This document shows, one piece after another, positions 2,645 through 33,332 of a DNA stretch of 64,000 bases (positions are counted from its first letter, which is position 1; every line of letters begins with the position of its first letter). The DNA is from a virus. Under the pieces are notes generated by a model. It made no database searches. It saw only the letters and a list, made by a program, of their open reading frames with translations, and was not told the DNA's origin. Made by a program: the position numbers and the translations under genes. The stretch is from IMG/VR virus record IMGVR_UViG_3300009553_000019, positions 1 to 64,000 of that record; one strand, 5' to 3'.

Positions 2645-2645
2645 C

Positions 2646-3044
2646 ATGAAATATCTGTATAACGTTCGTTCAGAAACCGATCCAAACACCTCTCAACCTT
2701 CTACTACAGGTGTTACTACAGTAAATGTAGCAACCTTTAATAGTTGGCTGCAGCTTGGTGGTGTTCCAAACAATGCGATCATTTATGTAAAGGGAATCCT
2801 AATTGGCGTAGATGGTTCGGGAAACGCAGCCACTATTGAAGTGGCCAGACCATTTAAATTCTCGTCAGGTGTTTTATCTGCATTAGGCACCTTAAACGTT
2901 ATTACAGGTGCTACTGGAACCTTAGCTACAGCTATCGCATCTCTTGTGGCTAGCAGTCCAGCTATTGTTCTTCAAGCGACTGGGGTTTCAGCTACAACCA
3001 TAACTTGGTTTGGGCATATTTATCTCTTTTCTAATTCATATTAA
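2646..3044 (+). CDS. Small virion-associated protein, unknown
   Basis: 132 residues, starting at ATG one base after the stop of the collagen-like fibre. It is rich in Ser, Thr, Ala, Val and Gly with alternating hydrophobic stretches (VTTVNVATFNSW, AIIYVKGILIGV) that suggest an all-beta fold. A short GATGTLATA segment echoes the neighbouring fibre. There is no signal peptide and no recognisable catalytic motif. Its place between fibre genes suggests a fibre-tip, adaptor or chaperone-like structural role, but this is inference from position only. Confidence 0.6.
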   Translation: MKYLYNVRSETDPNTSQPSTTGVTTVNVATFNSWLQLGGVPNNAIIYVKGILIGVDGSGNAATIEVARPFKFSSGVLSALGTLNVITGATGTLATAIASLVASSPAIVLQATGVSATTITWFGHIYLFSNSY

Positions 3045-3055
3045 TCAGTGATTAG

Positions 3056-5178: not shown

Positions 5179-5235
5179 TGTACATCAAATGTGTAATCAG
5201 GACAGACTAGGTACCAGAAGTTGGCTAATTAACTT

Positions 5236-7313: not shown

Positions 7314-7324
7314 CTTGGTATAAT
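7297..7324 (+). promoter_or_regulatory. Possible sigma70-like promoter before the glycosyltransferase cassette
   Basis: A perfect TATAAT (7319-7324) sits 20 nt before the first glycosyltransferase start. A weak -35 (TTTGCA, 7297-7302) lies 16 nt upstream, overlapping the end of the previous gene. An AGGGAA ribosome-binding sequence follows before ATG 7344. This is suggestive only, because the region is AT-rich. Confidence 0.3.
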
Positions 7325-7343
7325 TACGACAAGTAGGGAAACG

Positions 7344-9779: not shown

Positions 9780-9837
9780 CCTGACGTAACCTAAGTTTTA
9801 GTTGTCGAGTTGATACTATTATCATGAGGAATCTCAA

Positions 9838-16087: not shown

Positions 16088-18511
16088 ATGACTATCGATC
16101 TTTCAGTATATACAGACCCAGGCGTGTACCAGCAAGAGGTTATTCAACCTCAAGCATTAGCTACAGGTCAGGTGCCAAATGTACTGGCTGTAGTTGCTAT
16201 CGGTCCTCGGTCTAAGCGATCGACTAACGAGATTGTTCAACGTGGTATCGTACTTAACGAATCTGTAACTTTCAGTACCCCATCTCCTTACAATTACACA
16301 TTGTTGAGTCATGGAAATCGTCGTAAACAAGATACAACGATTTTAAGGAATGGTACTGATTCAATCCCTCTGGGTGGTTATGATTATCTTCCAGCTTCAA
16401 AGCAAGGAGTAGCTGGACCCTACAACATTCCTGCAACTTCATATCTTACCTTTGAGTTAGATCACAAGGGTTACCTCTCAGTATTAATCACAGCGTCAGC
16501 TACTCAAACTGCTGGGGTAATTGTAGGCCTAATTAATGCAGCTCTAGCAGCTGATGCTAGGTATGGGGTACCATACAACGCTGTAGCTTCAGTTGCAGGT
16601 GGCAATGCAGTCAAGATAACTTCACCAGTTACTGGTGCTACATCTGACTTTAGAATTATTCAGACCCCAGCAGCCACTGGTGGTGATGTAGGTGTTGTTA
16701 TTTTTGGTGGTTCGCTACCATTTATCGCAGACACAATCGTTCAACTGAATCCACTTCAGTATGTTACTGGTGCTACTTATACGATTTCCTACGTATCGAC
16801 AGATAACCAAGTCGATCCATTGACATTTAGTCCAGTTACCAGCATCATCAAAATTGGTAATACTGCGAATGTCACTTCTTATGCTAAGAGTGTTGATTAC
16901 ACCTTAAACGGTAACAATGTTGATTGGTCACTAAATACTCAAGCAACAGTTACTGGTCCTGCTGGAACCTTTAATACGACGGTGCTTAACAGTATCAAGT
17001 TTGCGGTTAATGGTTTAGCAGCTCTTACAGTTGCAATTCCAACTGGAGCAACGACTTCAGCTGCAGCAATTGCAACAGCTTTAAATACCGCTTTAATTGC
17101 TAGTTCAGCATATGGACCTCTGTATGGTTCGGTGTTTACTGCACCTAGTACTTCAGTTGTAGCTACTGCTCCAGCTCAATTTCAAGACGAGCCTGTAGCT
17201 AGAGGTGTGAATAGCATCATTGAATTCTTTGATACACCAAACAACTCTGCAAACTTAGTGTTTGGTATCACTTCCTTTCCTTACCAAACAATTGGTTCAG
17301 CTGACCAACCAACATATGGTTCTCTGTATTTCATTACTTATGAGTACGTTCGGCCTACTTCTGATTACAACAACCCAAGTCCTGTAGATCATAGATTCTT
17401 TGACGAGACATCTGCATATCTTTATACAGAGCCACTAACTGCTGATAATATCTCAGTTAATAAGTTGGCGATGGCAGTGAGAGTAGCATTTGAGAATAAT
17501 ACCCCACAGATCATCTTGATTCAGGTGAATGATCAGAATCAGCCTGGTTCTCCATCAATTAATGAGACCAAGGCAGCCATTGACTCGGCTAGCAACAACA
17601 GCAGCATTACAGAGCTGGTGGTTCTCGATACTAGACTAGCTGTTCAATCTTACTTGCTGTCTCATGTCACTACACAATCCGCGATTCTCGAGAAGAATTA
17701 TCGTAGAGGTTGGTATGGCATGGCACGAAACACTCCAGTGGGTGACATCGACACGCCCAACACTTTCGTCTACAGAGCACAGATCACACTTCAGGTTCCA
17801 CCAGATAGTCCTGGAAGAGGTCGATCCATCATCTCTGCTCCAGCAAATGTTTCCAAGACATTTACTCTAGAGTCTGGAGCTGAGCAAAAAGTGTTGTTGG
17901 ATTCGACTTATCTTAGCTTAGCAACAGCAGCAGTGATGTGTAGCTTTCTATCAGTAGCGACCTCTCTATTGCGCAAGACGATTGTTGGATTCGATCTCGA
18001 TGATTTCCAGGTTTATCAGAAGGGTGAGCGTAGAACACTAGCAGCTAACGGTGTAAACGTTGTAACTCTTGATGGTGGAAACTTTAAGCTAACTGATCCG
18101 GTAACCACTGAACAGGGTGCTGGAAACCTTAGAGAGTTTACTGAAATTAGTGCAGGTGCTCAGAAGGATAAGGTTGTCAGAGGGATTGATAAAACTCTAG
18201 ACACCAACGCGGTCGGTATTGTGCCTTCAGATCTAGCCGATTACATTAACGACATCAAGGGGCTGATTGCAAATGAGCTTCGATCAATGATCGAAACTGG
18301 CGACATTGCACGTTACAAAGATCAGAATGGAAACCCTCGAGATATCAACCTCCAGACTGATATGCAGGTCTTCCAAAGCCCGACTGATCCTACCAGATTT
18401 AATTTCAGGTATTACTTCAACCTACGCTATCCAGCCAAGAGATTCTTTGGTGAGTGGTCGGTAGACAATCCGTTTTTTGGTGCAGCAAATTCAGGACAGC
18501 AAACATCTTGA
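16088..18511 (+). CDS. Contractile tail sheath protein
   Basis: 807 residues. It opens with the sheath hallmark YTDPGVYQQEV. The C-terminal domain (MIETGDIARYKDQNG, MQVFQSPTDPTRFNFRYYF, then LRYPAKRFFGEW) has the beta strands that mesh with neighbouring sheath subunits. The variable middle (about 100-400) carries Ala/Thr/Val-rich domains that would decorate the sheath surface and make it longer than the T4 protein. It is followed after two small genes by the tube gene, the usual arrangement. A 148-nt intergenic stretch precedes it, room for a separate promoter. Confidence 0.85.
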   Translation: MTIDLSVYTDPGVYQQEVIQPQALATGQVPNVLAVVAIGPRSKRSTNEIVQRGIVLNESVTFSTPSPYNYTLLSHGNRRKQDTTILRNGTDSIPLGGYDYLPASKQGVAGPYNIPATSYLTFELDHKGYLSVLITASATQTAGVIVGLINAALAADARYGVPYNAVASVAGGNAVKITSPVTGATSDFRIIQTPAATGGDVGVVIFGGSLPFIADTIVQLNPLQYVTGATYTISYVSTDNQVDPLTFSPVTSIIKIGNTANVTSYAKSVDYTLNGNNVDWSLNTQATVTGPAGTFNTTVLNSIKFAVNGLAALTVAIPTGATTSAAAIATALNTALIASSAYGPLYGSVFTAPSTSVVATAPAQFQDEPVARGVNSIIEFFDTPNNSANLVFGITSFPYQTIGSADQPTYGSLYFITYEYVRPTSDYNNPSPVDHRFFDETSAYLYTEPLTADNISVNKLAMAVRVAFENNTPQIILIQVNDQNQPGSPSINETKAAIDSASNNSSITELVVLDTRLAVQSYLLSHVTTQSAILEKNYRRGWYGMARNTPVGDIDTPNTFVYRAQITLQVPPDSPGRGRSIISAPANVSKTFTLESGAEQKVLLDSTYLSLATAAVMCSFLSVATSLLRKTIVGFDLDDFQVYQKGERRTLAANGVNVVTLDGGNFKLTDPVTTEQGAGNLREFTEISAGAQKDKVVRGIDKTLDTNAVGIVPSDLADYINDIKGLIANELRSMIETGDIARYKDQNGNPRDINLQTDMQVFQSPTDPTRFNFRYYFNLRYPAKRFFGEWSVDNPFFGAANSGQQTS

Positions 18512-18544: not shown

Positions 18545-18877
18545 ATGACACCAGAACAAGAAGCTAAGATCGACCAACTACTAAAAATGGTTGGAGATGT
18601 TGCCAACGATCAGATAGCCCTTCGACAGAAGTTAGAAAACTGTGTAGGGGTAGTAGAAGTTCTGGTGCATAAACAAGGAATTCAGCAAGAATCTCTAAAA
18701 TCTGCTTGGGATGCAATTATGCGAGCAGTTGATAGAAGAAAAGACTTAGACTCGAAGATTCTAAGTCTACAAGAAGTTACAGGAAATGCTTTTGATGCCA
18801 TCAAATCGATAACAGATCATCTTGGCATTCCAGCACTTACAGAAAAAAATGACAGGTCCTCGGTGTCTTCTGGTTGA
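18545..18877 (+). CDS. Small coiled-coil protein, unknown
   Basis: 110 residues, start ATG 18545 with a GAGGAG ribosome-binding sequence. It is helical throughout (EQEAKIDQLLKMVGDVANDQ; ESLKSAWDAIMRAVDRRKDL) with heptad-like spacing of hydrophobics, so probably an oligomeric coiled coil. Its 3' end overlaps the receiver-domain gene by 29 nt in another frame. No known family. It could be a tail-assembly factor or a partner of the receiver domain. Confidence 0.65.
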   Translation: MTPEQEAKIDQLLKMVGDVANDQIALRQKLENCVGVVEVLVHKQGIQQESLKSAWDAIMRAVDRRKDLDSKILSLQEVTGNAFDAIKSITDHLGIPALTEKNDRSSVSSG

Positions 18878-19223
18878 TGATGAGCCAGGGCTATTAAGAC
18901 TAGTTTCTAGAATTCTTGAAATTCACTGTAATATGACTGTAGTTACTGCATCAAACGCTATAGTAGCACTTCAGCGACTTCATGCTGAAAGTTTTGATAT
19001 CTTAGTTACTGATGAGGGTATGCCTGGTCCTTCTGGTTTGCATCTTTTGAAAGTTGCAAAAGAGAAATGGCCATTAATGCGAAGAGTCTTATTGACTGGG
19101 GCAGCAAATAGTGAGCAGATGAATTCTGGCATTGCTGATGCAGTAATTGATAAGATCTTCAACTCCAAGGTAATAGCCTCAAAGATTTGTCGTCTAGCCT
19201 CAAATGCTAGGAATATCACTTAA
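18849..19223 (+). CDS. Stand-alone response-regulator receiver (CheY-like) domain
   Basis: 124 residues from ATG 18849; a TTG at 18822 would add nine residues that fit no family feature. All receiver landmarks are present: acidic pair Asp10-Asp11 plus Glu12 in LLVDDEPG, phospho-acceptor Asp55 in ILVTDEGMPG, Thr83 in VLLTGAA and Lys102 in VIDKIF. There is no DNA-binding or enzymatic output domain. It overlaps the upstream coiled-coil gene and sits between the sheath and tube genes, so it is made with the structural genes. Phosphorylation by a host kinase would let it act as a phosphate sink or protein-binding switch. This role is inference. Confidence 0.85.
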   Translation: MTGPRCLLVDDEPGLLRLVSRILEIHCNMTVVTASNAIVALQRLHAESFDILVTDEGMPGPSGLHLLKVAKEKWPLMRRVLLTGAANSEQMNSGIADAVIDKIFNSKVIASKICRLASNARNIT

Positions 19224-19276: not shown

Positions 19277-19729
19277 GTGCCTACTAATCCTCCAAATACA
19301 CTGGTTAGAAGCTCTCATGCTTTGACCATCAGAGCAAACGGTATAACAGTTGGCGTTATTCAAGGCTGGTCTCCAGCTATGAATCGGGCGATTACACCGG
19401 TATATGAAATATCGGTCGCTACCAGCGGTGAACCCATTGAGAACGTACCTGGAAATGTTGGTGGGTTAACCATCTCCGTCTCCCGATTTGATCTATACAC
19501 TAAGCGTATGGAGTCAGCATTTGGTACACCAGATGTAGCAATGCTAGGAGATCACAACAACCCATTCCAGGTTCTCGAAATTTGGAGATTCCCTGATAAT
19601 ACTCAAGAGGGCTGGCTTTATCTAGGCTGTTGGTTCTCCAACATGGGTAGAAACTATTCTGCTACCGACCAACGCTTAGTAAATGTTTCAGCATCTATTT
19701 CGTATGTTCGTAAGATTCGGTCAATCTGA
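19277..19729 (+). CDS. Tail tube protein
   Basis: 150 residues with a GTG start. The size, the position after the sheath gene and the sequence pattern support a gp19-like inner tube subunit: beta strands LTIRANGITVGVIQGWSP and PVYEISVATSGEPIENVPGN, then LYLGCWFSNMGRNYSATDQ, ending in a strand with VSASISYVRKI. The tube would stack in hexameric rings around the tape measure inside the sheath. The GCTAG-containing spacer upstream (19224-19276) has three AAGCTAG repeats and could form a weak hairpin. Confidence 0.75.
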   Translation: MPTNPPNTLVRSSHALTIRANGITVGVIQGWSPAMNRAITPVYEISVATSGEPIENVPGNVGGLTISVSRFDLYTKRMESAFGTPDVAMLGDHNNPFQVLEIWRFPDNTQEGWLYLGCWFSNMGRNYSATDQRLVNVSASISYVRKIRSI

Positions 19730-19736
19730 GGTTAAG

Positions 19737-20201
19737 ATGAAAAAGTTTTTCTCGCTGTTTTTAATTTTTGCAATCATCCTTCCTGCCGCAGTACTCGAAA
19801 CTGGCTGCACAGAGGCCTTGTCTGATGCAAACATTGGTAAGGCTAGTTCTGTCTTGAGTGCTATCGAAACAGTTGTTTCTGTGGCCTCAGTGATTTTTGG
19901 TGATGCAAAACCTTTGATTCCAGCAGATCATCAAGATACTGCTCAAAATGCTTTCAATACTTTGGTCTTGAATGTTGAAAAAGCAAAAACTGCTTTGGCA
20001 GATGCTTTGAGTTTAGCCAAAGATTCAAAGACTCGTCCAGATACTAGAAAACTGGTTGATGATGCGATCAGTGCAATTAACGATCTTCAAGACTTTTTGA
20101 AGACTTTGAAAACTTCTAAGTTTGGTATTAAACCAAATGGAGAAGATGATGTCAGTAAAGTCTTTGAAACGTCAAAAGGAATCCTTGCAAGAAGTAAATA
20201 G
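19737..20201 (+). CDS. Small lipoprotein
   Basis: 154 residues from ATG 19737, with GAGG just upstream. It starts MKKFFSLFLIFAIILPAAV, a lysine-headed hydrophobic signal, followed by LETGC, a somewhat atypical lipobox that would put Cys23 at the mature N-terminus. The mature part is mostly helical and highly charged (LNVEKAKTALADALSLAKDS, DLQDFLKTLKTSK). A lipoprotein within a tail-structural operon is unusual. Known phage lipoproteins act in superinfection exclusion (blocking receptors) or as outer spanins in lysis, and either is possible. No inner-spanin partner is visible nearby. Confidence 0.7.
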   Translation: MKKFFSLFLIFAIILPAAVLETGCTEALSDANIGKASSVLSAIETVVSVASVIFGDAKPLIPADHQDTAQNAFNTLVLNVEKAKTALADALSLAKDSKTRPDTRKLVDDAISAINDLQDFLKTLKTSKFGIKPNGEDDVSKVFETSKGILARSK

Positions 20202-20399: not shown

Positions 20400-20930
20400 A
20401 TGTCTGATCAAAATGATATCTCAAACGCAAAACGACAATCAGCCTTAAATGTACTTGACGATCTAGCATCGGAATTGGATCAGGGGTTTCTTGAAGAAAC
20501 ATATACTGTAAAAGGAGTAGAATGGACAATTCGTCTACTGAACGACCATGAGAGAAACTGGGCTAATGGCTATCTGAGAAACGCCTCTCTTACTTCGATG
20601 GCAACCTCTTTGAGATCCCCAACATTAGCTATCGCTATTCGTAAAATTAACGGGTTAAGTGTTGAGGCATTTTTTACACAAAAATGGCAAGAACGAGAAA
20701 CTGCGTTGAGCGAGGTTGAGAAGGCAATTTTAGCTGCTACCAACCAGTTCGTAAAACAGTACTTTTTTGCTGAAACATTATTTAAGTGGTTATCTGAAAG
20801 ACCTCCACAATTTGTTCAAGAGTTATGGTCAAAATACACAGCTTTAGACGATCGTAGGGAGGCAGCAGAAAGCGCCATGGGAAAATCTTTGGGGCAGGTT
20901 GGGACATCGGAGACTCCCCAGACTACTTAA
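20400..20930 (+). CDS. Tail assembly chaperone, short form (G-like)
   Basis: 176 residues, start ATG 20400 with TAGGAG 6 nt upstream. It is acidic and helical, and lies immediately before the tape-measure genes, as lambda G-type chaperones do. Near its end the sequence ATG GGA AAA contains the slippery heptamer GGGAAAA (20879-20885). Most ribosomes would read on to TAA at 20928-20930 and give this short product. Those that slip back make the long GT-like form. Chaperones of this kind coat the tape measure and recruit tube subunits. The family is assigned by position, size and frameshift architecture rather than by sequence identity. Confidence 0.75.
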   Translation: MSDQNDISNAKRQSALNVLDDLASELDQGFLEETYTVKGVEWTIRLLNDHERNWANGYLRNASLTSMATSLRSPTLAIAIRKINGLSVEAFFTQKWQERETALSEVEKAILAATNQFVKQYFFAETLFKWLSERPPQFVQELWSKYTALDDRREAAESAMGKSLGQVGTSETPQTT

Positions 20931-21676
20931 AAGATGATCCATTTCTAAAAACATTACGTGAAGATCCAGCTCTTAGCTGGAGGTGGACTCAACTAAAGAT
21001 AAAGGCTAGAGTTTGTCATTCAAAAGGTTTACTATTAAGCGATGACAGGCTGAAGTTTATGAACAAGTCCAGGTGGATGTTTGAAACCTGGCAAATAGCC
21101 TTATCAGAGACACAAAAAGCTAATCAAACCACAAAGATTGGTGAACTAGGGTTTAAAGCTTTACAGAACTTGCTGGTAAATCTTATAGGTTTGAACATTG
21201 AACCCGTTGTTGATGATTCAAAACCACTTGATAAAGATGGTAAGCCAGCATATCGATGGCCAATAGGTGAAGAGTTTACTCCGTTGATCTTAGCAATTGC
21301 CCGCCCTGACTACGTAAAACAGGCAATGGATAAGATAACTACCCTTACTGAATCAGCAACAGCTGAATCTACTGAAAGTGACTATTCAGAAGATGATCTG
21401 CAATTCTTTGATGACTTACCAATCAATGAGAAGCAAACAGTTTGGAATAGTGCGGAATTCCAAAACCAGCTAAAGTCTCTCGTCATTATGAAAGATTCGG
21501 CTTCTGTTGACCCTTTTGCTGAAAAGATAGAACAACCTGTTGGTCCTACAGCTGAAGATAAGAAACGTTTAGCAGAAGAGCAAGCTTTTAATCGACCAAG
21601 GAGAGCACCAGCATTTAAGGTTGATGCTGATACTGAAGATTTGCTTGATTTTGGTGAACTTAAGAAAGACATTTGA
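20400..21676 (+). CDS. Tail assembly chaperone, -1 frameshift product (GT-like)
   Basis: The product joins 20400-20885 and 20885-21676, giving about 425 residues. After slippage at GGGAAAA the -1 frame is open, without an initiation codon or stop, from before the site through 21676. It continues as KIFGAGWDIGDSPDY and then into the long T-like extension (MNKSRWMFETWQIALS). An ATG at 21059 falls inside this extension and need not be a real start. The T-like part ends in an acidic low-complexity tail (DTEDLLDFGELKKDI). Its stop overlaps the ATG of the first tape-measure gene. In lambda the T domain binds the tube protein and G binds the tape measure; the same split is likely here. Confidence 0.8.
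20879..20885 (+). other. Programmed -1 ribosomal frameshift site (GGGAAAA)
   Basis: The heptamer has the X-XXY-YYZ form and is phased correctly to the zero frame (G GGA AAA). It differs from lambda's GGGAAAG only in the last base. The zero-frame stop follows 43 nt downstream, and the -1 frame stays open for 263 codons. Confidence 0.82.
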
Positions 21677-24030
21677 TGGAACTAGAAGCAGAGCTAAGTG
21701 TTGAAGGTTTAGATTCAACATCCTCTTCCTTTACTGATATGGGTAAAGCGGTGGAGGAGTTTGAGCCACTCGCTGAACGACTTGCTAAAGCATTAGGCTC
21801 TGTTTCTGCTACATTAGATTCGCTATCTAAAAAAGTAGATAGCGAGGTTAAGCTAAGTCAAGAGCAGCAAAAGAAACTTGACGAAAAACAGCAGGATCAG
21901 GAACGTAAAAAGAGTGAAGAAGATGCAAAAAATGAGCAATCAAGGCTTCAAAACAAAGTTGCTCAGTTGATTGGTGGTGGGATTAACACTGCTGCTTACG
22001 CTCAAGCTCTCGATAAGGTAAAAGAGCAAGAAGATGCAATTCAAGAAGCTGCTAAGAGAGGGTTGATAACAACTAAGGAAAAGGTTGAAGCTTTAGGTAA
22101 GCTAAAGGTTCAATACAGCAAGTTAGCCACCGAATCTGCAGTCTACAACGCACTAGGTCAAGGTGCTATTGGTAGGATAGCAGCTACAACGACTAGTAGA
22201 TTAATGTCGGTACCTGGCAAAGCTGTTGACGCGGTTGGATCACAGATTTCAGGTATTGGGACGGGGTTGATGGGTTTAGCAGGCTCATTACCCATCGCTG
22301 GTGGACTTTTTGGGTTGATGCTATATGGTGTAATGAACCAAGACAGACTCAATAGAGAAGCTGGGGAGATCCTTAACATAGGTTCAGCCATGGCTGGAAA
22401 CCTTACCTCTGCTGGTTCTGGTTGGTTATCCGGATTCCAAGAAAAGGCACAAAAGTACTACGCAATTAACAAGAGCGAGGTACAGGGCCTTCTTTCAACG
22501 TTTAAAGAAGCTGGATTCTCAATAAACGATGTACTAAAGAAGCAGTCGGGGTCATTAGGCGAGGTTGGGTCTAACATTATGACCCTGACTTTAGGTATTG
22601 ATAAACACTTTGAGCTAGCATCTGGGGCATCTGCAAGAAATGTAGTTTCGCTAGTTAACGACTTTGGCATGAAGGTAAAAGATGCTGGGGATCTTTACGA
22701 GAAATTGGCTTTTGCGGGTTCTAGATCTGGTATCGGTGTACAAAACTTTGTTAACTATGTTCAGCAAGGTTCAATGACTCTACGGCAGTATGGTGTTTCT
22801 GTAGAAAATACTGCTGTAGTTTTGACCAAGTTACAAGACGCTTATGAAGCAATGGGCATGCCCAAGGCTTTGGCTGGTACTCAAGCGGGTATAGCTTTGG
22901 GTCAAATTTCCGGAGGGATGGCCAATCTAAATTCTGGAATGCAAGGCTATATGGCTGAACGAATGGGGATGGGTCAGGGTATCGAAGCTAGGATGCATTT
23001 TAGGGAAGGGATGGAGCGGTTATCAAAGGGTGGGGCTGATAATTCATTCCTGAGTGATTTCATTCGTCAAGCTAGACAAATGGCGCTTGAATCAACTGGT
23101 GGGGATTCAGCCATGGCGAGATATTTCCTCGAGCAGCAGGGGTTTGGTTTTGAAGGAGCCAAGGGGATAATGACCATTGGTGATAAGTTAGATAAGGGTC
23201 AAACCTTAGATCAGCTATCACTAAAAGAACAACAATCCCTTAGAGATTCCTTTATGACTGAAGGTCAGAAACAGGGGGAAATCCAGAAGAATATGAATAA
23301 GATTCTTGCTGGGATGGCTGACATAGGACAAGGTCTCTTAAAGATTGTAACCAACTTTGTAGGGTGGGGAATCGTATTTTTCAAGACATTGATGGTTCGT
23401 TTTACAGGAACAGAAGAAGAGAAGCAGAAAGCTCAAGTTGAGCTCGATAAGTTCTCAAAAGGTATGCGGGAAGGCGCTAGTCAAATTTGGGGTGGCAAAG
23501 ATTCAACTGGTGGTTTTAAGGGTTTAAAATCTGGATTTGGTGGGTTGTTAGCACCAATTGCTAAACCATTGACAGATGCTATTGAATGGGATCCACATTC
23601 AGCTAATTCACCTCCTCCCATTCCAATTGATGAACATACAACTAAAAAAGAAGCCGAAACTAAAGCTGCTGAAGCTGCATACCAAAAGTCAATGGTAGGT
23701 CAAATTGATAAATACTCGGATGAGTATTACCACAAGTTAGTACATGATTCAGATTCAACTGCAATGCAAGCCCTATATGCTGCTAACGCTGGGTTAGCAA
23801 AAGTAGAAATTGGTGCATTGAAGGCTATATCCCATCCGATTGAGAAGTTCAACAATTGGCGAAGTGGCGGAAGTTGGGAATCGGATGACGAAAAAGCTGC
23901 TAAGGATAGAGGGGTGCAGGCATATGATGCATGGCAAGCAGCTCATGGCAAGAAAGTTGTCATAACTGTTGAAGCAAGTAGTAGTAATCAACAATCACGA
24001 CCATCAACTAGATCAATAATGGATCATTAA
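21676..24030 (+). CDS. Tape-measure protein, paralog 1
   Basis: 784 residues. The start is ATG 21676, overlapping the chaperone stop; a TTG three bases earlier is less likely. Residues 30-140 are charged coiled coil. A hydrophobic segment (SLPIAGGLFGLMLYGVM) lies near 215, followed by NREAGEI and the block FQEKAQKYYAINKSEVQ ... GEVGSN ... IDKHFE, which recurs in two later genes. A second hydrophobic stretch (LLKIVTNFVGWGIVFF) is near 560. Helical rods with membrane-like segments are typical of tape measures, which set tail length and enter the host envelope at injection. The position right after the G/GT chaperone supports this. Confidence 0.82.
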   Translation: MELEAELSVEGLDSTSSSFTDMGKAVEEFEPLAERLAKALGSVSATLDSLSKKVDSEVKLSQEQQKKLDEKQQDQERKKSEEDAKNEQSRLQNKVAQLIGGGINTAAYAQALDKVKEQEDAIQEAAKRGLITTKEKVEALGKLKVQYSKLATESAVYNALGQGAIGRIAATTTSRLMSVPGKAVDAVGSQISGIGTGLMGLAGSLPIAGGLFGLMLYGVMNQDRLNREAGEILNIGSAMAGNLTSAGSGWLSGFQEKAQKYYAINKSEVQGLLSTFKEAGFSINDVLKKQSGSLGEVGSNIMTLTLGIDKHFELASGASARNVVSLVNDFGMKVKDAGDLYEKLAFAGSRSGIGVQNFVNYVQQGSMTLRQYGVSVENTAVVLTKLQDAYEAMGMPKALAGTQAGIALGQISGGMANLNSGMQGYMAERMGMGQGIEARMHFREGMERLSKGGADNSFLSDFIRQARQMALESTGGDSAMARYFLEQQGFGFEGAKGIMTIGDKLDKGQTLDQLSLKEQQSLRDSFMTEGQKQGEIQKNMNKILAGMADIGQGLLKIVTNFVGWGIVFFKTLMVRFTGTEEEKQKAQVELDKFSKGMREGASQIWGGKDSTGGFKGLKSGFGGLLAPIAKPLTDAIEWDPHSANSPPPIPIDEHTTKKEAETKAAEAAYQKSMVGQIDKYSDEYYHKLVHDSDSTAMQALYAANAGLAKVEIGALKAISHPIEKFNNWRSGGSWESDDEKAAKDRGVQAYDAWQAAHGKKVVITVEASSSNQQSRPSTRSIMDH

Positions 24031-24845
24031 TGCCCGTTTCCCCATCGTTAGCACAGGCCCTAGACCTAGCAAACCGTTTTAATCGAGGTGATGGGAATGC
24101 AGGTCCTCGAATTCCCATGTTGATATACTCTGATGCTACTGCCGCCAGAGGCGAACCTCCTCTTCAGTTAAGAATCAATCCGCAGTCTGTAGCTTTTAAT
24201 CAACCAAAGCGCATATCAAAAAAGAATACGCAAGCTGGAACTGTGTATATGCATTGGTCTGACGAGAATGGAAGTAACAATGACATTCTTGAAATGCAGT
24301 TTAAGGGCAAAACTGGCAACATCAACCTGAAACACGATAAACCAAATCAACCAACTCTAGTTGGTAATGCTCTTCAAACGTTAGCAAATACACTTTCGAA
24401 TACTCCACCAAATCAAGGTCCAGCGCCTAATCAAGGAGCTGGAAAACTTTACACTTGGGCTAGGTTGTACCAAATGACACTAGCACCAACTCTGGATTTT
24501 TTGCCAGTTGGAAATACTGGTGGAACTTCCCGTCAAAACATAACTTCTTACATAGTTTATCGATCTCCCCTCCTACCACGAGCTATTAGATTTGGTGGAT
24601 TCTTTAACAACGCTTTAACATTTGCTGAAAATGCTGAACAGCCATGGTTAGTAGACTGGTCATTTAGCTTTATTGTCCAAAAGACAAATCCACCTCTCAA
24701 CCAACTTACTTCTTATCTAAACAACATCCTAACTGGTGGAGACAATGCTTTTGTAACCACCATTCAACAAGCTCAGAGAGATACAGTAGAGATGGCAGAG
24801 ACTAACAGAGCTGCTCAAGTAAATACAAATTTCAAACAGGGTTAA
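24030..24845 (+). CDS. Tail/baseplate protein inserted between tape-measure genes
   Basis: 271 residues, joined to the tape-measure gene by TAATG. The sequence is beta-rich (LRINPQSVAFNQPKRISKKN; GTVYMHWSDENGSNNDILEM; AGKLYTWARLYQMTLAP), with a mixed-charge C-terminal helix. The INPQSVAF-type opening resembles tail-tube-initiator or LysM-carrier proteins near the baseplate hub in contractile phages (gp48/54- or XkdP-like), but no LysM domain is visible. It probably caps the tube at the baseplate. The call rests on context and loose resemblance. Confidence 0.5.
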   Translation: MPVSPSLAQALDLANRFNRGDGNAGPRIPMLIYSDATAARGEPPLQLRINPQSVAFNQPKRISKKNTQAGTVYMHWSDENGSNNDILEMQFKGKTGNINLKHDKPNQPTLVGNALQTLANTLSNTPPNQGPAPNQGAGKLYTWARLYQMTLAPTLDFLPVGNTGGTSRQNITSYIVYRSPLLPRAIRFGGFFNNALTFAENAEQPWLVDWSFSFIVQKTNPPLNQLTSYLNNILTGGDNAFVTTIQQAQRDTVEMAETNRAAQVNTNFKQG

Positions 24846-24848
24846 GTC

Positions 24849-27023
24849 TTGGAAAAAGAAGTTGAATTAGACCTGGAAGGAGTTGCTTCTAGTTTTACAG
24901 ATTTAGGTAAAGCTATAGCCTCCTTGGCTAATTCAGCTGAAAATTACTCTGAAATTTTAGCTCAAAAGAAACAGAAAAAGACTCCTGAGAAAGAAAACGA
25001 TACTTTAGACCCGCTACTGCAACTTCAAAAAGATCGTCAAGTAGCTCTAAGAGAATTTTCTTCTCAGCTGCAGTTAGCAGGACTACCTCAGGCTGAAATT
25101 AGAGAGTTAGTGACCATTCAAGAAAACATACTAGCTCTTGGCGATGCTGAAAAAACAGGTTTAATAACCCGTACGGAAGAAGCTGCTGCAATAAAAAGCA
25201 TGAGAAAAGAGTTGGTAAAAGCTTCAGCTAGGGCTGAAGGAATTGACGAAAATCAACTTAACTCTGCTATGAATTCTGTTGGGGTTTCAAAAGGGTCTAG
25301 ATTGTTAGGGAAGGTTAGCAATCTTGGTGAGCAGCTAGGAGAAATGTCTGGTGGCTTTGGAAAGATTTTCGGATCTTTCACTGGGTTAAGTTCACTGGCA
25401 ACAGGAGGGTTTGCTAGTGCTGGAGTAATGGGTGGAGGGTTAGCATTGTTTGGTGCGATGCTATTTGGAGCTACTGAAACTAGCAGGTTGGGAGCACAGT
25501 ATGGACAAATCTATAATCTAGCAGTTGCTGATGGCGATTCTAGCTATAAGGCTGGTGTTGAATCTTTAGCAGCTTTTCAAGAAAAAGCACAGCATTATTA
25601 TGGTGTAGCTAAAACTGAAACTCTTGCCAACATAAAAATCTTCGTTGATGCGGGTTCCACGTTTAAGAGTATTTTTTCTGCTGAAGCTAAAAGCTGGGGT
25701 GAGGTAGGTGAAAATGCTGTTACGATGTCAATTGGTCTAGATAAGTTTTTCGAATCTGGGGATGGGTTTGCAGCTAAAACAGCAACCTCTATAACTAGAA
25801 ACTACAACCTTGATTTAGAGAAGGCAATCAAGGTTGTAGCAGGTATGGAATTTCAGGCTAAAAACCTTGGTTTTAGTGTAAGCTCCTTTGTTAGCTGGAC
25901 CCTACAAGCAACAGGTAATGTCAGGGAACTTGGCGGGAATTTAGAAGAAACTGCAAGTGCTCTAATCCAACTCAAGAAAAAATACATAGAGTTGGGGTTT
26001 ACAGGTGAGTCTGCTAACAGAATGGCAAACGAGGCTTTACAGTCATTGGTTGGTGGGTTAGCCCATATGTCTACTGGCCAACAGATAAGCATGGCTACAG
26101 AACTTGGCCTAGGCTCTGGGTTAGCAGGTAGACAGGAATTGTTAAACGGTATTGCCAGGGGTGAAGACTCAATCTTAGAGAAAGCTACAAAAGTACTTCG
26201 TGAACGAGCAATGAAGGCTGGTGGTGGTAGAGAATTTGAAGCTAGATTTGTCCTACAGGAAACTATGGGATTTTCTGGTGAAGGGGCGAGAGCTGTTTTA
26301 CTTTTAGGTGAGAAATTCGATAAGGGTTTGAAACTTACCGAGCTTAAAGCAACAGATAAAGCCTTACTAAGAAAAGCGTTTATAGACGAAGGAACGAAAA
26401 CCTCTGCTATTGAGAAGAATAACAGAGAGATGATGGATGGCATAGCTGAGTTAGGTAAGGGCTTACTAACCATTATTGGTAGTTTTTTAGGTGTAGCTAT
26501 TGTTGGTTTTAAAGCCACTCCTGACCTGATTTATGGAAGCGCTGCTGAAAAGTCCGCAGCAGTGGCAATGTTAGATAAAGAATTACGATATATGGATGCT
26601 GGGTTAAATCTAGCAGAAGCAGGTAGTAAAAAGGCCTTATCAGGTGTTTGGCATCAGATTGAGCCACTTTTAAGACCTGTAAAAGAGGCTCTTAGTTTTA
26701 ACGCTATAGGTGTAAAGTCACCTGAACCTGTTGAAAAACCTTCTCCTATATCCTCAGCTAAACCAACGAAATCCCTACCTTCGTCTTGGGATGTTGCTAA
26801 ATCACCTTCTCCTTCATCATTCTATCAGACAGATAACCAAAGCAAAGCTCCAACCACAAAACAACTAAAAAATGGTTACAAACCAACAACACAGGCTATT
26901 AAGGATTTGGGTAAGACCAAAGTCGAACAGACTGAAGATGCTATAAAGAATGCAGAATGGCAGTGGTTACCTGGATCTTCAGACCCTGACAAACAAGTCA
27001 AAGTTCAAATGACCATTCAATGA
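24849..27023 (+). CDS. Tape-measure protein, paralog 2
   Basis: 724 residues. The TTG start is supported by the matching N-terminus (VELDLEGVASSFTDLGKAI, compare SVEGLDSTSSSFTDMGKAV in paralog 1). It shares the hydrophobic segment (GGGLALFGAMLFG), FQEKAQHYYGVAKTET, SWGEVGENAVTMSIGLDKFFE and the FDKGLKLTELKATDKALLRK region. Each landmark has a counterpart in order in the other two paralogs. The last 100 residues are Pro/Ser/Lys-rich linker-like sequence. There is no lytic domain. The three copies are old enough that only these blocks align by eye. Confidence 0.8.
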   Translation: MEKEVELDLEGVASSFTDLGKAIASLANSAENYSEILAQKKQKKTPEKENDTLDPLLQLQKDRQVALREFSSQLQLAGLPQAEIRELVTIQENILALGDAEKTGLITRTEEAAAIKSMRKELVKASARAEGIDENQLNSAMNSVGVSKGSRLLGKVSNLGEQLGEMSGGFGKIFGSFTGLSSLATGGFASAGVMGGGLALFGAMLFGATETSRLGAQYGQIYNLAVADGDSSYKAGVESLAAFQEKAQHYYGVAKTETLANIKIFVDAGSTFKSIFSAEAKSWGEVGENAVTMSIGLDKFFESGDGFAAKTATSITRNYNLDLEKAIKVVAGMEFQAKNLGFSVSSFVSWTLQATGNVRELGGNLEETASALIQLKKKYIELGFTGESANRMANEALQSLVGGLAHMSTGQQISMATELGLGSGLAGRQELLNGIARGEDSILEKATKVLRERAMKAGGGREFEARFVLQETMGFSGEGARAVLLLGEKFDKGLKLTELKATDKALLRKAFIDEGTKTSAIEKNNREMMDGIAELGKGLLTIIGSFLGVAIVGFKATPDLIYGSAAEKSAAVAMLDKELRYMDAGLNLAEAGSKKALSGVWHQIEPLLRPVKEALSFNAIGVKSPEPVEKPSPISSAKPTKSLPSSWDVAKSPSPSSFYQTDNQSKAPTTKQLKNGYKPTTQAIKDLGKTKVEQTEDAIKNAEWQWLPGSSDPDKQVKVQMTIQ

Positions 27024-29464
27024 CTGATCATTTATCAGACTTAAGCAAGGCGATTCTGTTCTTTGCTCAGAGAACCGAAAAGCTGTATGCTGATTTGGGA
27101 TCCTTATCTGACTCTTACGGTGAAAAGGGTAATTCCTTAGTTGATGAGAACCTACCTGATGAGGTTAGAGAACAGCTTGAAACAGAGCATAAAGAGCTTC
27201 AAACAGTTTCAAAATTAGTTGGCAACGATACCTCTGCTAACTTATTAGCAGATATGAAACGAATTGAAATTCGTTTATACGAATTAGACTCTGCTTACCA
27301 ATTAGGGCTAGTTACTGATTCAGAACACCTGAAGACTTCAGAAGAGTTAAATCATGCCTATGATGATTTAAATGCAACATTAAAAGCCAGCTCCTTAACA
27401 GGAGTTTCAGCAGCAAAGAAGCTCTCATCTTTACCAAAGAAAGCTGGAGATTTAATAAGTGGGCAATTAGGGGGTGTACTAACTGGTACTGTTGGACTGA
27501 TAAGCAACCTCACATCCCATCTACCCGCAGCGGGACTATTCGGGTTGCTTTTGTATGGAATCCTAGAAAAAGATAGGCTAAACCAACAAGCAGGGGAAGT
27601 TGTAAACCTGCTATCAGCAACAGGTAGTGAATTAACAAATGCCTCGATTAACCACTTAGCATCTTTTCAAGAAAAAGCTAGTAAGTTTTACTCAATCTCA
27701 AAAGAGTCAGTTCAGGGTGTTGTAAAGGAACTAGTAGATGCTGGTATGTCTGTTGAACAGATTACCCGAGTTCAATGGAAAAACCTAGGGGAGGTGGGGG
27801 AGAATGTAGTAACTGCATCTTTAGCAGTAGATGCTTTCTTTGAACATAGTCAAGGGTTTACTAATTCAGCAGCAGTAGAGTTGATAGACCAGCATGGTAT
27901 TGCTTTAAATAACGCAGTTAACCAAATTGTAAAGATTGAATTTGCTGGAAAAAATGCAGGGGCAGGTGTTGAAGAATTTACTAAAGAAGCATTGGAAGCT
28001 TCTGCAGAATTGAAGAATTATGGTGTTGAAGCTGAATCAGTAGCATCCTTATTAATTGCAGTTCAGCAAAGTTATGAAAAGACTGGTTCAAGTGCCCAAT
28101 CTGCTATGAAGTGGGCTTTAGATGGAATGTCTGAGATAGCGGGTGGGTTCAAGAATTTATCAGTGGGTATAAACTCTAAATTAGCTCAGTCTATGGGTTA
28201 TGGATCTGGAATTGAGGGAACTTATGCCTTAAGGGATCGAATTGCAGTTGATGACCCCAACCAACTAAAAGAGCTGGTAGACCACCTATTCGATATCGTT
28301 AAAAGTACCGTTTCAGATACTGCAAACCCCATGCTATCTGATTCAACCAAGATGCGTCTGTATCTTGAGGGGTTAGGGTTTGGGCAACAAGGTTCAAAAG
28401 CTTTAGTTGAGGTAGCAGGAAAACTAGACAAACCACTAGCCGAAGTTTCCAAGGAGGAATGGTCTGGTATTCGACAGGCTTTTACCCAAGAAGGTACTAA
28501 AACCTCTGCCATCATGAAAGATACCGAGCAGATCTTAATTGGTATGAGAAATACTGGTCAAGGTTTGCTTGGTATGTTTACTAATTTTGCTGCTTATGCA
28601 ATTATGTCAATGAAAGCATTATTGCAGTTAGATTGGGCTGATGTTGCGGGCATATTTAACCTTCCCGGTAGCTCTCTACTTCCACATAACGATGAGTTGA
28701 AAAAGTCAGTCTCAACTGCATTAGATCAACAGTGGCATAGAGTAACTGATTCGATGGATCAAGTTAAGCACGGGTTTTCAATGTCTTGGGAGGGAATAAA
28801 AGACATTGCTCAACCAGTTCTTGAACCAGTAGCAGTTGCTAGAGATTTGAAGGTAAATCCAGTTTCTAGAGTTGGTGGGGATGGGGGACCAAAACGGATG
28901 GTAACTATGACAACCACCAAGCTTTCTATGAAGCAAGCTGTTAATGTTTTAGCTACGGCATGGCAAAATGTTTTTGGAGAACAGAATGATGAAGCAGTAG
29001 CTCTTCTTGCTTCTCAGTGGTCAGTAGAGACTGGAACTGGCTCTAAAATGTACAATTACAACTTTGCAGGGATAAAGGGGTACAGCTACCTGGGTACAGC
29101 GTTTTCATCAAAAACAAAAGAAGGGTATGACAAGACTGAAAAAGTGATTACTGATAAGTTTCGAGCTTATGAAACGGTGGAACAGGGAGCTGAAGATTAT
29201 GTTCGATTTCTAGCTTCTAAATACAAAGATGCTGTAAATGCTGCTGCCGAGCATAATGCTAACGAATTTGTACACCAACTAAAGGCTCATCATTATTTCA
29301 CAGGATCAGAAAAAGTGTATACAAAGTTGGTTAATTACTATTCTTCGATAGCTCTAAAAACAATTAAAGAAGTTCGAACTTCAATTTCTAGTGCTGTTGT
29401 AACTAACAATGTAAATGGAAGATCCGTAAAGTTGGTAGTGAATGTTCAAGAAGCAGGTCTTTAA
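27020..29464 (+). CDS. Tape-measure protein, paralog 3, with C-terminal glucosaminidase domain
   Basis: 814 residues, coupled by ATGA. The core repeats the paralog landmarks: AAGLFGLLLYGILEKDRLNQQ, FQEKASKFYSISKES, NLGEVGENVVTASLAVDAFFE. From about residue 635 the chain changes into a FlgJ/glucosaminidase-type muramidase: KQAVNVLATAWQNVFGEQND, WSVETGTGS with the probable catalytic Glu near 671, YNFAGIKG, then KFRAYETVEQGAEDYVRFL. Tape measures often carry such a domain to open a hole in peptidoglycan when DNA is injected. Of the three paralogs only this one has it. Confidence 0.85.
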   Translation: MTDHLSDLSKAILFFAQRTEKLYADLGSLSDSYGEKGNSLVDENLPDEVREQLETEHKELQTVSKLVGNDTSANLLADMKRIEIRLYELDSAYQLGLVTDSEHLKTSEELNHAYDDLNATLKASSLTGVSAAKKLSSLPKKAGDLISGQLGGVLTGTVGLISNLTSHLPAAGLFGLLLYGILEKDRLNQQAGEVVNLLSATGSELTNASINHLASFQEKASKFYSISKESVQGVVKELVDAGMSVEQITRVQWKNLGEVGENVVTASLAVDAFFEHSQGFTNSAAVELIDQHGIALNNAVNQIVKIEFAGKNAGAGVEEFTKEALEASAELKNYGVEAESVASLLIAVQQSYEKTGSSAQSAMKWALDGMSEIAGGFKNLSVGINSKLAQSMGYGSGIEGTYALRDRIAVDDPNQLKELVDHLFDIVKSTVSDTANPMLSDSTKMRLYLEGLGFGQQGSKALVEVAGKLDKPLAEVSKEEWSGIRQAFTQEGTKTSAIMKDTEQILIGMRNTGQGLLGMFTNFAAYAIMSMKALLQLDWADVAGIFNLPGSSLLPHNDELKKSVSTALDQQWHRVTDSMDQVKHGFSMSWEGIKDIAQPVLEPVAVARDLKVNPVSRVGGDGGPKRMVTMTTTKLSMKQAVNVLATAWQNVFGEQNDEAVALLASQWSVETGTGSKMYNYNFAGIKGYSYLGTAFSSKTKEGYDKTEKVITDKFRAYETVEQGAEDYVRFLASKYKDAVNAAAEHNANEFVHQLKAHHYFTGSEKVYTKLVNYYSSIALKTIKEVRTSISSAVVTNNVNGRSVKLVVNVQEAGL

Positions 29465-31992
29465 TGCCTAGATTAACGCGAGGGGAAAATCAAGGATATG
29501 TTAGAAACTTGTTCCCTGCTTACCGGGTGTATGTTGGAGGTGAGAACGTTACAGAATTAGTAACGTCGGTCAGGACTCAATGGCCGGATGGTAGTCCTTC
29601 AGAAGCAACCATTGAGTTGGTCAACCCCAACAAATTGTTAACCATCACTAGATCAGACATAATCACAATAGGTAATGCTAGATTTGATCTGATAAACCAA
29701 ACTACTGATCAGGGTATTGTAGATAGAACTAATCAAATTCTGTTTACCGACGAGGATGCCGATTTACGCGAAATTATTGAAGCTAATAATGAGATTGAAG
29801 CTAACCGTCGAAATGTTTCTGTAGGTGATTTTACGGAATCGGTAGATAAGCTAGTTTCAGATCGATTTAAAGACGCTAGTCGACGAATTGGAATTGAGGA
29901 TGTGATTGCTTCTACTCCACTGTCAGCTAAGGTAGCAGGGCTAAAATCTCGTATGGTTCAAAAGAAGCAAGATTTGAAATTCATACAGGGGACTACCAGC
30001 TTTGATGGATCCGCAGCTACTTCAGAACCATTTTTTAAGTGGCCTTTCTATGAGGGTTTATGGATTTTCCACCATCAAGATCCAGTTAGAGTTGCTTTTC
30101 GAGATCCTTACGACCCCTCCATTTGGTACTGGATGCATGCAGGTACCATTACCGATATTAATGAACGTGAAACTGATAATCTTCAATCAACGGTTACCAT
30201 TAATTCAGAAGGCGTTTTAAAAGACCTTAGATATGCTAGAATTGCAAATGTCACTACTGCTCTGTTGACCCCTGATCAAATTACATCGATCAAGGATCAA
30301 CAGACAGGATTTTCAGGTGAGCAACTGTCAAAATTGCAGGCTACTGTATTTTCTAATTTCTTACAGAATAGCACTCTAGACCAGGTTGTGGAGTTAGTCG
30401 TTTTTGGCTCTACTTCAGTAGCAGATCAGTTAAAACAAAGTATTAACGCAATTACCAATGGTACCGTAGCTCCAGAAGTAGCTTTGGTAAGGTTTGGTTT
30501 TAACCCATCCCTACTCAGCAAAGATACAAGCACAGGGACTTCTGGAAATCCCACCACAACAGCTAGTAACACTACTGCAACTTCTGGAAATATCAGTCAG
30601 TTGATTCAATCAGCTCAAATTTCTGAAGAACAGTTTAGAGGAATGAATATTGATGCAATCTCTAACTTCAAGAGATTTTCAAATCAGCAGGGACTTGATG
30701 TTAGGATCATAGGTGGACCAGTTGGTCCCGTTGATGAGTTGATCGGGGCACCAATTGACGGGCTATTCGATTGGCAGAGCCTGCTTGATCATCAGGTAAG
30801 ACTGTCTGACATCCAGACGATGGCTTTTCCTGAAAATACTAACAGAAGAGGAGCTACTTCTGACGTAGCCTTTGGTTCACAACCTTCTAATCCTAATTCC
30901 TCATCAAACTCCACCATTGGTATAACGACTTCTAGCATTGAAGACACCATTGATCAAATTGGTGAAGATATTCAGACCTATCCTATACGCCAGCGGGTTA
31001 AGATGTTGTTACCAGCAAATCTTGGCCCTTCTTTAGGTAGAGAGGTTCTAGATAGAGACTTCGCTGCTTCACCTGCAATGCAGGCAGAGTATTATGATCG
31101 ACTTTCTTTACTTCAGCAGATTGTGGAAAGAATTGAGTTTTCACTCTACGACACTCCAAGAGGCGATATAGTCATAGAGCATCCCCTGTACGACTTTGAA
31201 CCTCGTCATTTTTCTGGTGGAGGAGGGACGAATGCTTTTAACCAATCTGCAGACTCTTTTGACTTAACCGACCAACAAATGGCTGAATTACTTGGTGTGG
31301 AGGATTTACCAACTCCTTCAGCTGCCACTATCCAACAAGATAACATTGGAAATAAATATCAGAACAATTACGTAGTTGGTTCTTTTGAAACCATCAGTGT
31401 AGATATTGGTAGCTCTGAAGAGAATGTAAAAACAGTAATGGTCTGTACGCCAAGACTCTTACCATCAATCTCTGGTGATAACAGTAGACGAGACAACAGA
31501 CAGGTTCTTGTTTCTTTACCTAACTTAGTACCGCTGTATGGTTTTAGACTTGAGCAAGGTGATGTTCTTGGTTCTATAACTACAGTAGAAGCTGCTAGGC
31601 TGTGGGGCCATGTCATGCTAAATCGAATGAATGCTGATATGGTTAGTATGCGAGTTCCAGCTTTACCTAATTGGTGTTCTTGGCCAAATAGGCCACACTA
31701 CATACAGACTAGAAATGTGATGGCGGTAACTAAATCAGTATGTCATACTATAGCATGGCAATCAGACTGTAGCACAGAATATGGTGTAAACCACTGTAAA
31801 TTTTGGGATGGCAGGACTCAAAAATCAGATGTCCTAACTGGTAGCGTAATTTCAAAGCCATTGGTTCCAAGATTCGTCCCATTTGGTGGGGTTAATGCTA
31901 GACCATTCAACTATTCAGACATACTTCGTGTAGAATTTGATCAAAGAGGTCAACCTACACCGTACAATGCTGCAAATAAGGCTCCACAATGA
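29464..31992 (+). CDS. Baseplate hub protein (gp27/gpD-like)
   Basis: 842 residues, TAATG junction with paralog 3. The N-terminus (FPAYRVYVGGENVTELVTSV, then SPSEATIELVNPNK) is the tube-like domain of hub proteins. It is followed by WIFHHQDPVRVAFRDPYDPS and TITDINERETDNL, the 'tool for field D' type domain. A Ser/Thr/Asn-rich linker (about 355-380) and an extra C-terminal domain (VVGSFETISVDIGSSEENV onward) make it much longer than T4 gp27. It would form the trimer that connects the tube to the spike encoded next. Confidence 0.7.
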   Translation: MPRLTRGENQGYVRNLFPAYRVYVGGENVTELVTSVRTQWPDGSPSEATIELVNPNKLLTITRSDIITIGNARFDLINQTTDQGIVDRTNQILFTDEDADLREIIEANNEIEANRRNVSVGDFTESVDKLVSDRFKDASRRIGIEDVIASTPLSAKVAGLKSRMVQKKQDLKFIQGTTSFDGSAATSEPFFKWPFYEGLWIFHHQDPVRVAFRDPYDPSIWYWMHAGTITDINERETDNLQSTVTINSEGVLKDLRYARIANVTTALLTPDQITSIKDQQTGFSGEQLSKLQATVFSNFLQNSTLDQVVELVVFGSTSVADQLKQSINAITNGTVAPEVALVRFGFNPSLLSKDTSTGTSGNPTTTASNTTATSGNISQLIQSAQISEEQFRGMNIDAISNFKRFSNQQGLDVRIIGGPVGPVDELIGAPIDGLFDWQSLLDHQVRLSDIQTMAFPENTNRRGATSDVAFGSQPSNPNSSSNSTIGITTSSIEDTIDQIGEDIQTYPIRQRVKMLLPANLGPSLGREVLDRDFAASPAMQAEYYDRLSLLQQIVERIEFSLYDTPRGDIVIEHPLYDFEPRHFSGGGGTNAFNQSADSFDLTDQQMAELLGVEDLPTPSAATIQQDNIGNKYQNNYVVGSFETISVDIGSSEENVKTVMVCTPRLLPSISGDNSRRDNRQVLVSLPNLVPLYGFRLEQGDVLGSITTVEAARLWGHVMLNRMNADMVSMRVPALPNWCSWPNRPHYIQTRNVMAVTKSVCHTIAWQSDCSTEYGVNHCKFWDGRTQKSDVLTGSVISKPLVPRFVPFGGVNARPFNYSDILRVEFDQRGQPTPYNAANKAPQ

Positions 31993-33332
31993 GCGGTAGA
32001 CCAATTATCCCCACTGATAGAAAGAATGGGCCATTATCAGCTACAAGACCTGCTGATTTTTTTACTACGATGCACAGAGCTATCGTAGTATCGGTTGATG
32101 CTGAAAAAGGGAAACTTACAGCACAGTTTGAAGATACCGCTGGTCAAAGAGACAACATCAATGTCCCATTCGGGTTTATCAGTTCACCAATAAATAATCG
32201 AAGAAAGTCTGCCTGGAGTAGGTATATACCACAAGAGGGTGATATTGTAGTTTTAGGTTTTGATACAAACCACACACCTAGAATCATAAGTTACAGCCTG
32301 ATTTCTTATGAATTACTTTCGGTGTTAAATAGCGAAACTGGTTATCAGTTTAGTACTCTACAGCCAGGTGAGTGGGATCAAAGATCTAGTGGTGGTGCAT
32401 ATTTTAGAGGTGATAGGACAGGACTACTATTCCTATCAGGTGGCTTAACGAGTATCTCATTAGACAAGAAACGATTTGAAATACGATCTTCAGCGGGACT
32501 TGAAAAGTTTTCAGCAAATCAATCAGTATGGAGACGAGGTCAGGTTAAACGGTCTTTGGTACCTTTTACCCCCGAGACTGTCATTAAGTTTCCAGCTGGT
32601 GGTGCACCTGCTACCCCAGCTAATGCAGTACAGATGGATTTGTACGAAAGTACCGTAGATCTTCGGTCTCCTGTTCCGGGAACTCCCTTAGGGTTCCCAA
32701 TGGCCTTCAGCTCGTTGGGAAATGTAGTAAATCCGGAGCTGTCTACAGCAGCAGGAGATGCTTATGGCGTTGGTCCCGTAGCTATAAAAAGATTTCCTGC
32801 TACTGTGGCAGCTGGAGCACCAGCAACCGCTACAGCTAGGTTTTTTGCTAGGATCTATGCTTCTGATCCAGTATCTCAACTTCCAGCCCCACCCACTCCA
32901 CCAGTCCCTGGAACTCTACCATTTGAAATTGGTATTGACCAACTGGGAAATGTTTTCATAAACAATTTAGGTGTAGGTGCTTTGGGTGGGGTAAGGTGGT
33001 TTACTTCTGGAACTCTTTTTGAGTTAGCAGGTGCAGTAGCAATACAACTATCCTCCCCAATCATTCGACTAGGTGGTCCATTAGCTACCGTACCAGCAGT
33101 AAAAGGAACTGAATTTGCAACTGCATTTACTGCTTACTTTACAGCAGTAGCATCTGCAAGTTCTACTTTAGCCGGAGGTAGTGGTTCACCACAATCTGTC
33201 ATTACCTATGGAACAGCCATGGCAGCTGCAGCTACTGCCATGGCTGCTACAATAGCTGGTATGCTAGCTCCACACATCTTAATGACTGAAGCTCCAATTC
33301 CTAGCCTTCTACCTAACATATTGACAGGTTAA
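31989..33332 (+). CDS. Baseplate central spike protein with OB-fold (gp5/gpV-like)
   Basis: 447 residues, ATGA overlap with the hub gene. Residues 30-110 read as an OB-fold: MHRAIVVSVDAEKGKLTAQF, then YIPQEGDIVVLGFDTNHTPR, the usual tube-facing domain of spike and VgrG proteins. The middle has STLQPGEWDQRSSGGAYFRG and FEIRSSAGLEKFSANQS, consistent with a beta-prism needle. The C-terminal 80 residues are Ala/Thr-rich and helical. There is no lysozyme domain; peptidoglycan cleavage may rest with the third tape-measure protein. Confidence 0.72.
   Translation: MSGRPIIPTDRKNGPLSATRPADFFTTMHRAIVVSVDAEKGKLTAQFEDTAGQRDNINVPFGFISSPINNRRKSAWSRYIPQEGDIVVLGFDTNHTPRIISYSLISYELLSVLNSETGYQFSTLQPGEWDQRSSGGAYFRGDRTGLLFLSGGLTSISLDKKRFEIRSSAGLEKFSANQSVWRRGQVKRSLVPFTPETVIKFPAGGAPATPANAVQMDLYESTVDLRSPVPGTPLGFPMAFSSLGNVVNPELSTAAGDAYGVGPVAIKRFPATVAAGAPATATARFFARIYASDPVSQLPAPPTPPVPGTLPFEIGIDQLGNVFINNLGVGALGGVRWFTSGTLFELAGAVAIQLSSPIIRLGGPLATVPAVKGTEFATAFTAYFTAVASASSTLAGGSGSPQSVITYGTAMAAAATAMAATIAGMLAPHILMTEAPIPSLLPNILTG

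Follow-up and report, generated by a model that had tools for sequence, protein, structure and literature searches.

One tape-measure gene per phage is the norm. The stretch of viral DNA analysed here (the window, positions 1 to 64,000 of IMG/VR virus record IMGVR_UViG_3300009553_000019, 64,000 nucleotides in all) appears to carry three in tandem, which raises the question of whether all three are tape measures and, if so, how they would be used in one tail. It is still debated whether tape measures are trimers or hexamers and in what way a core of three strands is fitted into a six-fold tube; if the strands were the products of distinct genes, each could be tagged, counted and deleted on its own.

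The three genes, W1, W2 and W3, lie within the tail locus of a contractile-tailed phage. All features described below are on the plus strand and all positions are those of the window. The order is sheath, tube, two chaperone-type genes, W1, gene x, W2, W3, hub, spike and then the baseplate wedge genes. The 807-residue tail sheath protein (16088..18511), which was used as the marker for the phylogeny of the tail module, was recognised by its similarity to a protein of Virus Rctr197k (39% identity, 98% of the length covered) and to gp178 of Bacillus phage G, which is annotated as a tail sheath. The product of 19277..19729 is taken to be the tail tube protein from its position and from a match to the virion structural protein family phrog_985 (E 1.3e-9). 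The next two genes, a G-like gene of 176 residues (20400..20930) and a T-like gene of 205 residues (21059..21676) whose position is conserved, would from that position encode tail assembly chaperones. Across the relatives this pair adjoins the tape measure or tape measures on the 5′ side, and there is one pair for all of the copies. Beyond W3 are a baseplate hub-type protein of 842 residues (29464..31992), with homologues in the same place in the relatives, and a spike-type baseplate protein of 447 residues (31989..33332), the functions of both being suggested by gene order.

Several other genes in and around the locus deserve mention. Between sheath and tube is an ORF of 133 residues (18822-19223) that by eye resembles a response-regulator receiver (LLVDDEPGLLRLVSRILE...DILVTDEGMPGPSGLHLL), which is unusual for a tail cluster. 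A small ORF between tube and chaperones (19683-20201) has a lipoprotein-type signal (MKKFFSLFLIFAIILPAAVLETGC...) and could be a superinfection-exclusion lipoprotein; two relatives, L013 and L059, have an ORF of similar size in that place. Past the wedge genes, a gene for 1053 residues (42420-45581) has short stretches in common with the sheath (E 2e-11 over 101 residues), and a second sheath-like gene is found at the equivalent place in several three-copy relatives. On the 5′ side of the tail genes (545-12461) are a collagen-like tail fibre-type protein and two apiosidase-like glycoside hydrolases, in a row that also holds multi-domain glycosyltransferases and a radical SAM/B12-binding protein. 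The tail tube gene itself is present as one to three tandem paralogues in the family (L004, L005, L025, L038, L062, L069 and others), with no clear correlation between the copy numbers of tube and tape measure: the window has one tube gene, and L025 has three tube genes and one tape measure.

W1 (21673..24030) encodes 785 residues from a TTG codon, or 784 if started at the ATG at 21676 as in an earlier note on this DNA, and its start overlaps the stop of the chaperone gene (TTTGATGG). That note had also described a different gene between the first and second tape measures, and this was found to be gene x (24030-24845), which starts on the W1 stop and encodes a baseplate or tube-initiator-type protein of 271 residues with 31-39% identity to Qx and R72. 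W2 (24849..27023, 724 residues) has a TTG start immediately past the stop of x, and the start of W3 (27020..29464, 814 residues) shares an ATGA overlap with the stop of W2. The W1-x-W2-W3 cassette is thus translationally compact, with its reading frames coupled.

The open reading frames and BLASTP bore out the description of three intact tandem homologues of 784, 724 and 814 residues. In pairwise BLASTP W1 and W3 are 32.6% identical over 562 residues (E 1e-78), W1 and W2 30.5% over 665 (E 5e-77) and W2 and W3 29.0% over 593 (E 7e-57), a similarity far beyond chance as judged from these alignments. The motifs said to recur in all three were largely recovered when the proteins were aligned: GEVG(S/E)N is GEVGSN in W1 and GEVGEN in both W2 and W3, and D..FE is DKHFE, DKFFE and DAFFE respectively. 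The motif given as FQEKA..YY holds for W1 (FQEKAQKYY) and W2 (FQEKAQHYY), but W3 has FY in place of YY (FQEKASKFY). The order of the motifs is identical in the three proteins, with hydrophobic stretches on both sides. A search of the whole 152,626-base record gave no fourth copy.

The position of the three genes, after the tail chaperones and before the baseplate hub, is that of the tape measure, the gene order in the family being sheath-tube-chaperone-chaperone-tape measure-x-hub. The possibility that only one of them would belong to a tape-measure family did not arise, since PF10145 matches W1, W2 and W3 (E 5.7e-6, 4.1e-4 and 5.6e-6) in a search restricted to the window's own record, all three below the curated cut-off, and the models of W1 and W3 described below retrieve tape measures. 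With hmmscan PF10145 matches W1 only (4.9e-4), and W2 alone gave no significant match in the library. AlphaFold2 models of W1 and W3 as single chains, made from an alignment without the Rctr197k row, are helical, with a confident core in W1 at about residues 210-600. The part of this common to all paralogues on alignment and AlphaFold2, W1 residues 211-552 (22303..23328), has pLDDT values mostly above 90. Foldseek searches of BFVD with the two models retrieved tape measures: there were 92 matches for W1 and 91 for W3 at E<=0.001 (best E 1e-7), those with names being mostly tape measure or minor tail proteins. The global TM-scores are low, as is expected for long helical proteins. There was no fold match in the PDB, where sequence and fold searches yielded generic coiled coils only; profile positions 34-177 match coiled-coil bundles, corresponding to the N-terminal coiled coil, and hydrophobic segments occur near residues 200 and 550 in most members, more weakly in some. 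W2 is counted as a tape measure through its homology to W1 and W3. Taken together, the locus, the homology of the three and the predicted folds of W1 and W3 indicate that W1, W2 and W3 are all homologous tape-measure-type proteins.

The C-terminus of W3 carries a feature that had been overlooked. Residues 661-768 (29000..29323) match the PF01832 glucosaminidase family, a peptidoglycan hydrolase, with an E-value of 3.8e-9, above the curated cut-off, and W3 is accordingly described here as an enzyme-bearing, or armed, tape measure with a predicted glucosaminidase; W1 and W2 are the unarmed paralogues.

To place the arrangement among its relatives, these were found with sheath and gene-x profiles, in IMG/VR contigs and two genome bins; a scan of viral contigs with W3 as a single protein gave no full relatives, nor did a tblastn search of 50,697 phage records with W1 and W3. 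Copies were counted along the stretch from chaperones to hub and in whole records, near-identical contigs being collapsed, and for each phage counted the locus was covered from the chaperones as far as gene x or the hub. For loci that end early, overlapping loci and whole-record searches were combined, the records themselves possibly being fragments. Among 32 distinct phages with the same tail module, 13 have one copy, ten have two and nine have three; none of the 32 has more. Apart from Rctr197k, an enrichment virus that is uncultured too, every relative is metagenomic. One of the single-copy relatives was binned with Actinomycetes and one of the sheath relatives with Archaeoglobales, placements that may be binning errors. 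One to three members is a common size for a small gene family, and the ceiling at three, seen in nine triple phages of two origins, is suggestive only. That the extra copies are redundant, decaying or an artefact of assembly is hard to credit: nothing was found in its favour, nine distinct phages, assembled independently, have intact arrays, and the copies are deeply diverged and keep orthologous positions.

Wherever it was tested, a multi-copy phage has one paralogue with a C-terminal peptidoglycan hydrolase, five Pfam families being represented overall. Hydrolase_2 is found in L029, L055, L056 and L066 (the matches in L055 and L056 are below cut-off), peptidase M15 in L034 and L060, and peptidase M23 in L064 and, weakly, in L063, while L013 has a marginal SLT match. 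L004, L014, L015, L016, L035 and L049 gave no passing Pfam match and have by eye a Hydrolase_2-like C-terminal pattern common to them; L020 and L022 were scored as armed from extension length and homology, and L059 from BLAST similarity to W3. Pfam detected no hydrolase domain in any of 13 single-copy proteins or in any of the 12 unarmed companions tested, nor was a hydrolase found on the hub or spike of the single-copy phages (0/5 phages). The C-terminal extensions are 238-402 residues long in armed proteins, against 140-241 in unarmed proteins of multi-copy phages and 73-196 in single-copy ones; the single-copy tape measures have 642-740 residues in total. In L063 (14450-19446) and L064 (14451-19426) the long tape measure with peptidase M23 is encoded by the first gene, not the last.

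W1, W2 and W3 are, on the evidence of their sequences, descended from one ancestral gene by duplication. In a tape-measure tree of 60 sequences the W1, W2 and W3 genes of the window, L013 and L059 form one clade (100/99), apart from a sister lineage in which one gene first duplicated into A and B and A then duplicated again, so that there are now A1, A2 and B (the relevant branches have support of 99/96 or higher); where exactly the W clade joins A and B has weak support (~41-43% bootstrap). The gene that was duplicated on going from two to three copies in the sister lineage was the unarmed one, as would be expected if this gene supplied two of three strands. In the sheath tree mostly single-copy phages are followed by the L063/L064 lineage and then by the window lineage, which is sister to two-copy phages, with the remaining three-copy phages nested within these; a single group of all three-copy phages is rejected (delta lnL 125, AU 8e-68). 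Gene order differs in the same way. Gene x separates the first tape measure from the second in the window lineage, whereas in the other lineages, single-copy phages and sister lineage alike, it follows the last, so that the triples read tape measure-tape measure-tape measure-x. The W clade, the gene order and the sheath tree together indicate that three copies were reached on at least two occasions. The two-copy lineage of L063 and L064 falls with the single-copy phages at the split that has the best support, and is probably an independent duplication. The single-copy phage L067 is on a long branch and its placement is uncertain.

Two further ideas about this history were considered and rejected. 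That W3 and the other armed genes are orthologues was rejected at a moderate level (AU p = 0.015, with groups picked after viewing the gene tree). Gene conversion as the cause of the W clade was set aside as sub-segment trees, which are weakly resolved, did not put W2 or W3 with the sister paralogues; the tree of segment 330-460 alone drew W1 near the A-type genes.

How three such proteins might be used is suggested by what they have kept. The core is 341, 340 and 341 residues long in W1, W2 and W3, and every paralogue in the family has a full core (334-351 residues) and full overall length. A similar, SFTDxGKA-like motif is found at the N-terminus of all of them, the N-terminal segment varying among paralogues by up to 40 residues, and in the window lineage all three end in a short beta-like tail, which in W3 is present even past the enzyme. 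Equal cores, a common N-terminal motif and these C-terminal tails fit three parallel strands in register better than end-to-end stacking. In a stacked arrangement the three proteins would sum to a longer tail, for which it could be said that each is a complete unit and that it is mostly the last gene of the array which has the hydrolase, but the collar and baseplate ends are not divided among the proteins and the stop at three is left unexplained, and we regard stacking as improbable. We think just as poorly of separate homotrimers forming distinct tails or virion classes that differ in length or armament. Three complete genes, one of them armed, could serve such a purpose, yet with core and overall lengths nearly equal the tails would hardly differ in length, and the genes form a single compact cassette with one chaperone pair.

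The most serious alternative is that one paralogue, probably W1, forms a homotrimeric tape, with W2 and W3 being accessory lumen or pilot proteins ejected alongside it and W3 acting as a wall hydrolase. Of the three, W1 is clearly the best conserved (54-56% within the clade, against 33-41% for W2 and W3), and the enzyme is on W3 only. However, W2 and W3 retain a complete tape architecture and a core of full length, and the same course would have to have been followed in parallel in several lineages, full-length tape domains being retained each time; this explanation appears rather unlikely. A search for charge complementarity among the paralogues gave net charges without consistent pattern, and the idea was dropped.

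We give about an even chance to the reading that W1, W2 and W3 share one tail tube as the parts of a hetero-oligomer, which would most likely be a 1:1:1 trimer, or a 2:2:2 hexamer if the phage of the window uses six chains. One protein per strand is supported indirectly, by the stop at three copies, the two origins, the full-length tapes and the arming of one copy. The compact cassette, the single chaperone pair and the three chains of solved tape measures also favour a hetero-oligomer, while the unequal N-terminal segments, the PF10145 matches below cut-off and the negative hmmscan result for W2 weigh against it. Each paralogue would then span the full length of the lumen with the strands parallel, W1 and W2 being plain strands and W3 the strand that carries the glucosaminidase, and firing of the tail would deliver one armed strand per trimer to the cell wall. 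Co-assembly, stoichiometry, presence in the virion, the parallel arrangement and delivery of the enzyme are all inferred from the genes. In the sister lineage the simplest reading is that the two-gene stage had two plain strands and one armed, after which the plain gene was duplicated. The broader proposal, that this is an A:B:C tape measure with one armed strand, derived from a homotrimer on at least two occasions and going no further than the strand number, is tentative and falls a little short of an even chance; so does its corollary, put forward with the same caution, that a viral homo-oligomer has here become an obligate hetero-oligomer. If true, the family would provide a natural series of one, two and three genes for this transition, reached more than once, and the reason may be that a bulky cell-wall enzyme passing through a narrow tube is needed on one strand only.

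Compared with known tape measures, the W proteins resemble the PhageMin_Tail / TP901 core families (PF10145, PF20155) in gene position, N-terminal coiled coil, helical core, hydrophobic segments and fold, but such phages normally have one gene where the window has three diverged ones in tandem. Virus Rctr197k (KX853510) has the same tail module and gene order, with homologous sheath, x, hub and spike, but a single tape measure of 669 residues in which no hydrolase was detected. The open-access literature searched gave no precedent for multiple or duplicated tape measures. The diffocin tape measure CD1366 is a homotrimer of ~817-residue chains spanning 139 nm (PMC10996793), comparable to the 724-814 residues of W1-W3 and likewise composed of helical and globular parts. 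The tape measures of JBD30 (PMC11445458) and 80alpha (PMC7048315) are three-chain homotrimers and that of Sf11 is also three-chain (PMC12724387). In these four systems one gene gives the homotrimer, whereas the window has three genes. The six-fold features of the tape measures of Pam3, as cited in PMC10996793, and of A-1(L) (PMC10966104) count against the trimer reading. A hydrolase fused to a tape measure, as in W3, is known from mycobacteriophage TM4, which has a peptidoglycan hydrolase domain (PMC1796659), and from phiCbK, which has a CHAP domain (PMC3556154); in those phages it is the sole tape measure that is armed, while here it is one of two or three paralogues.
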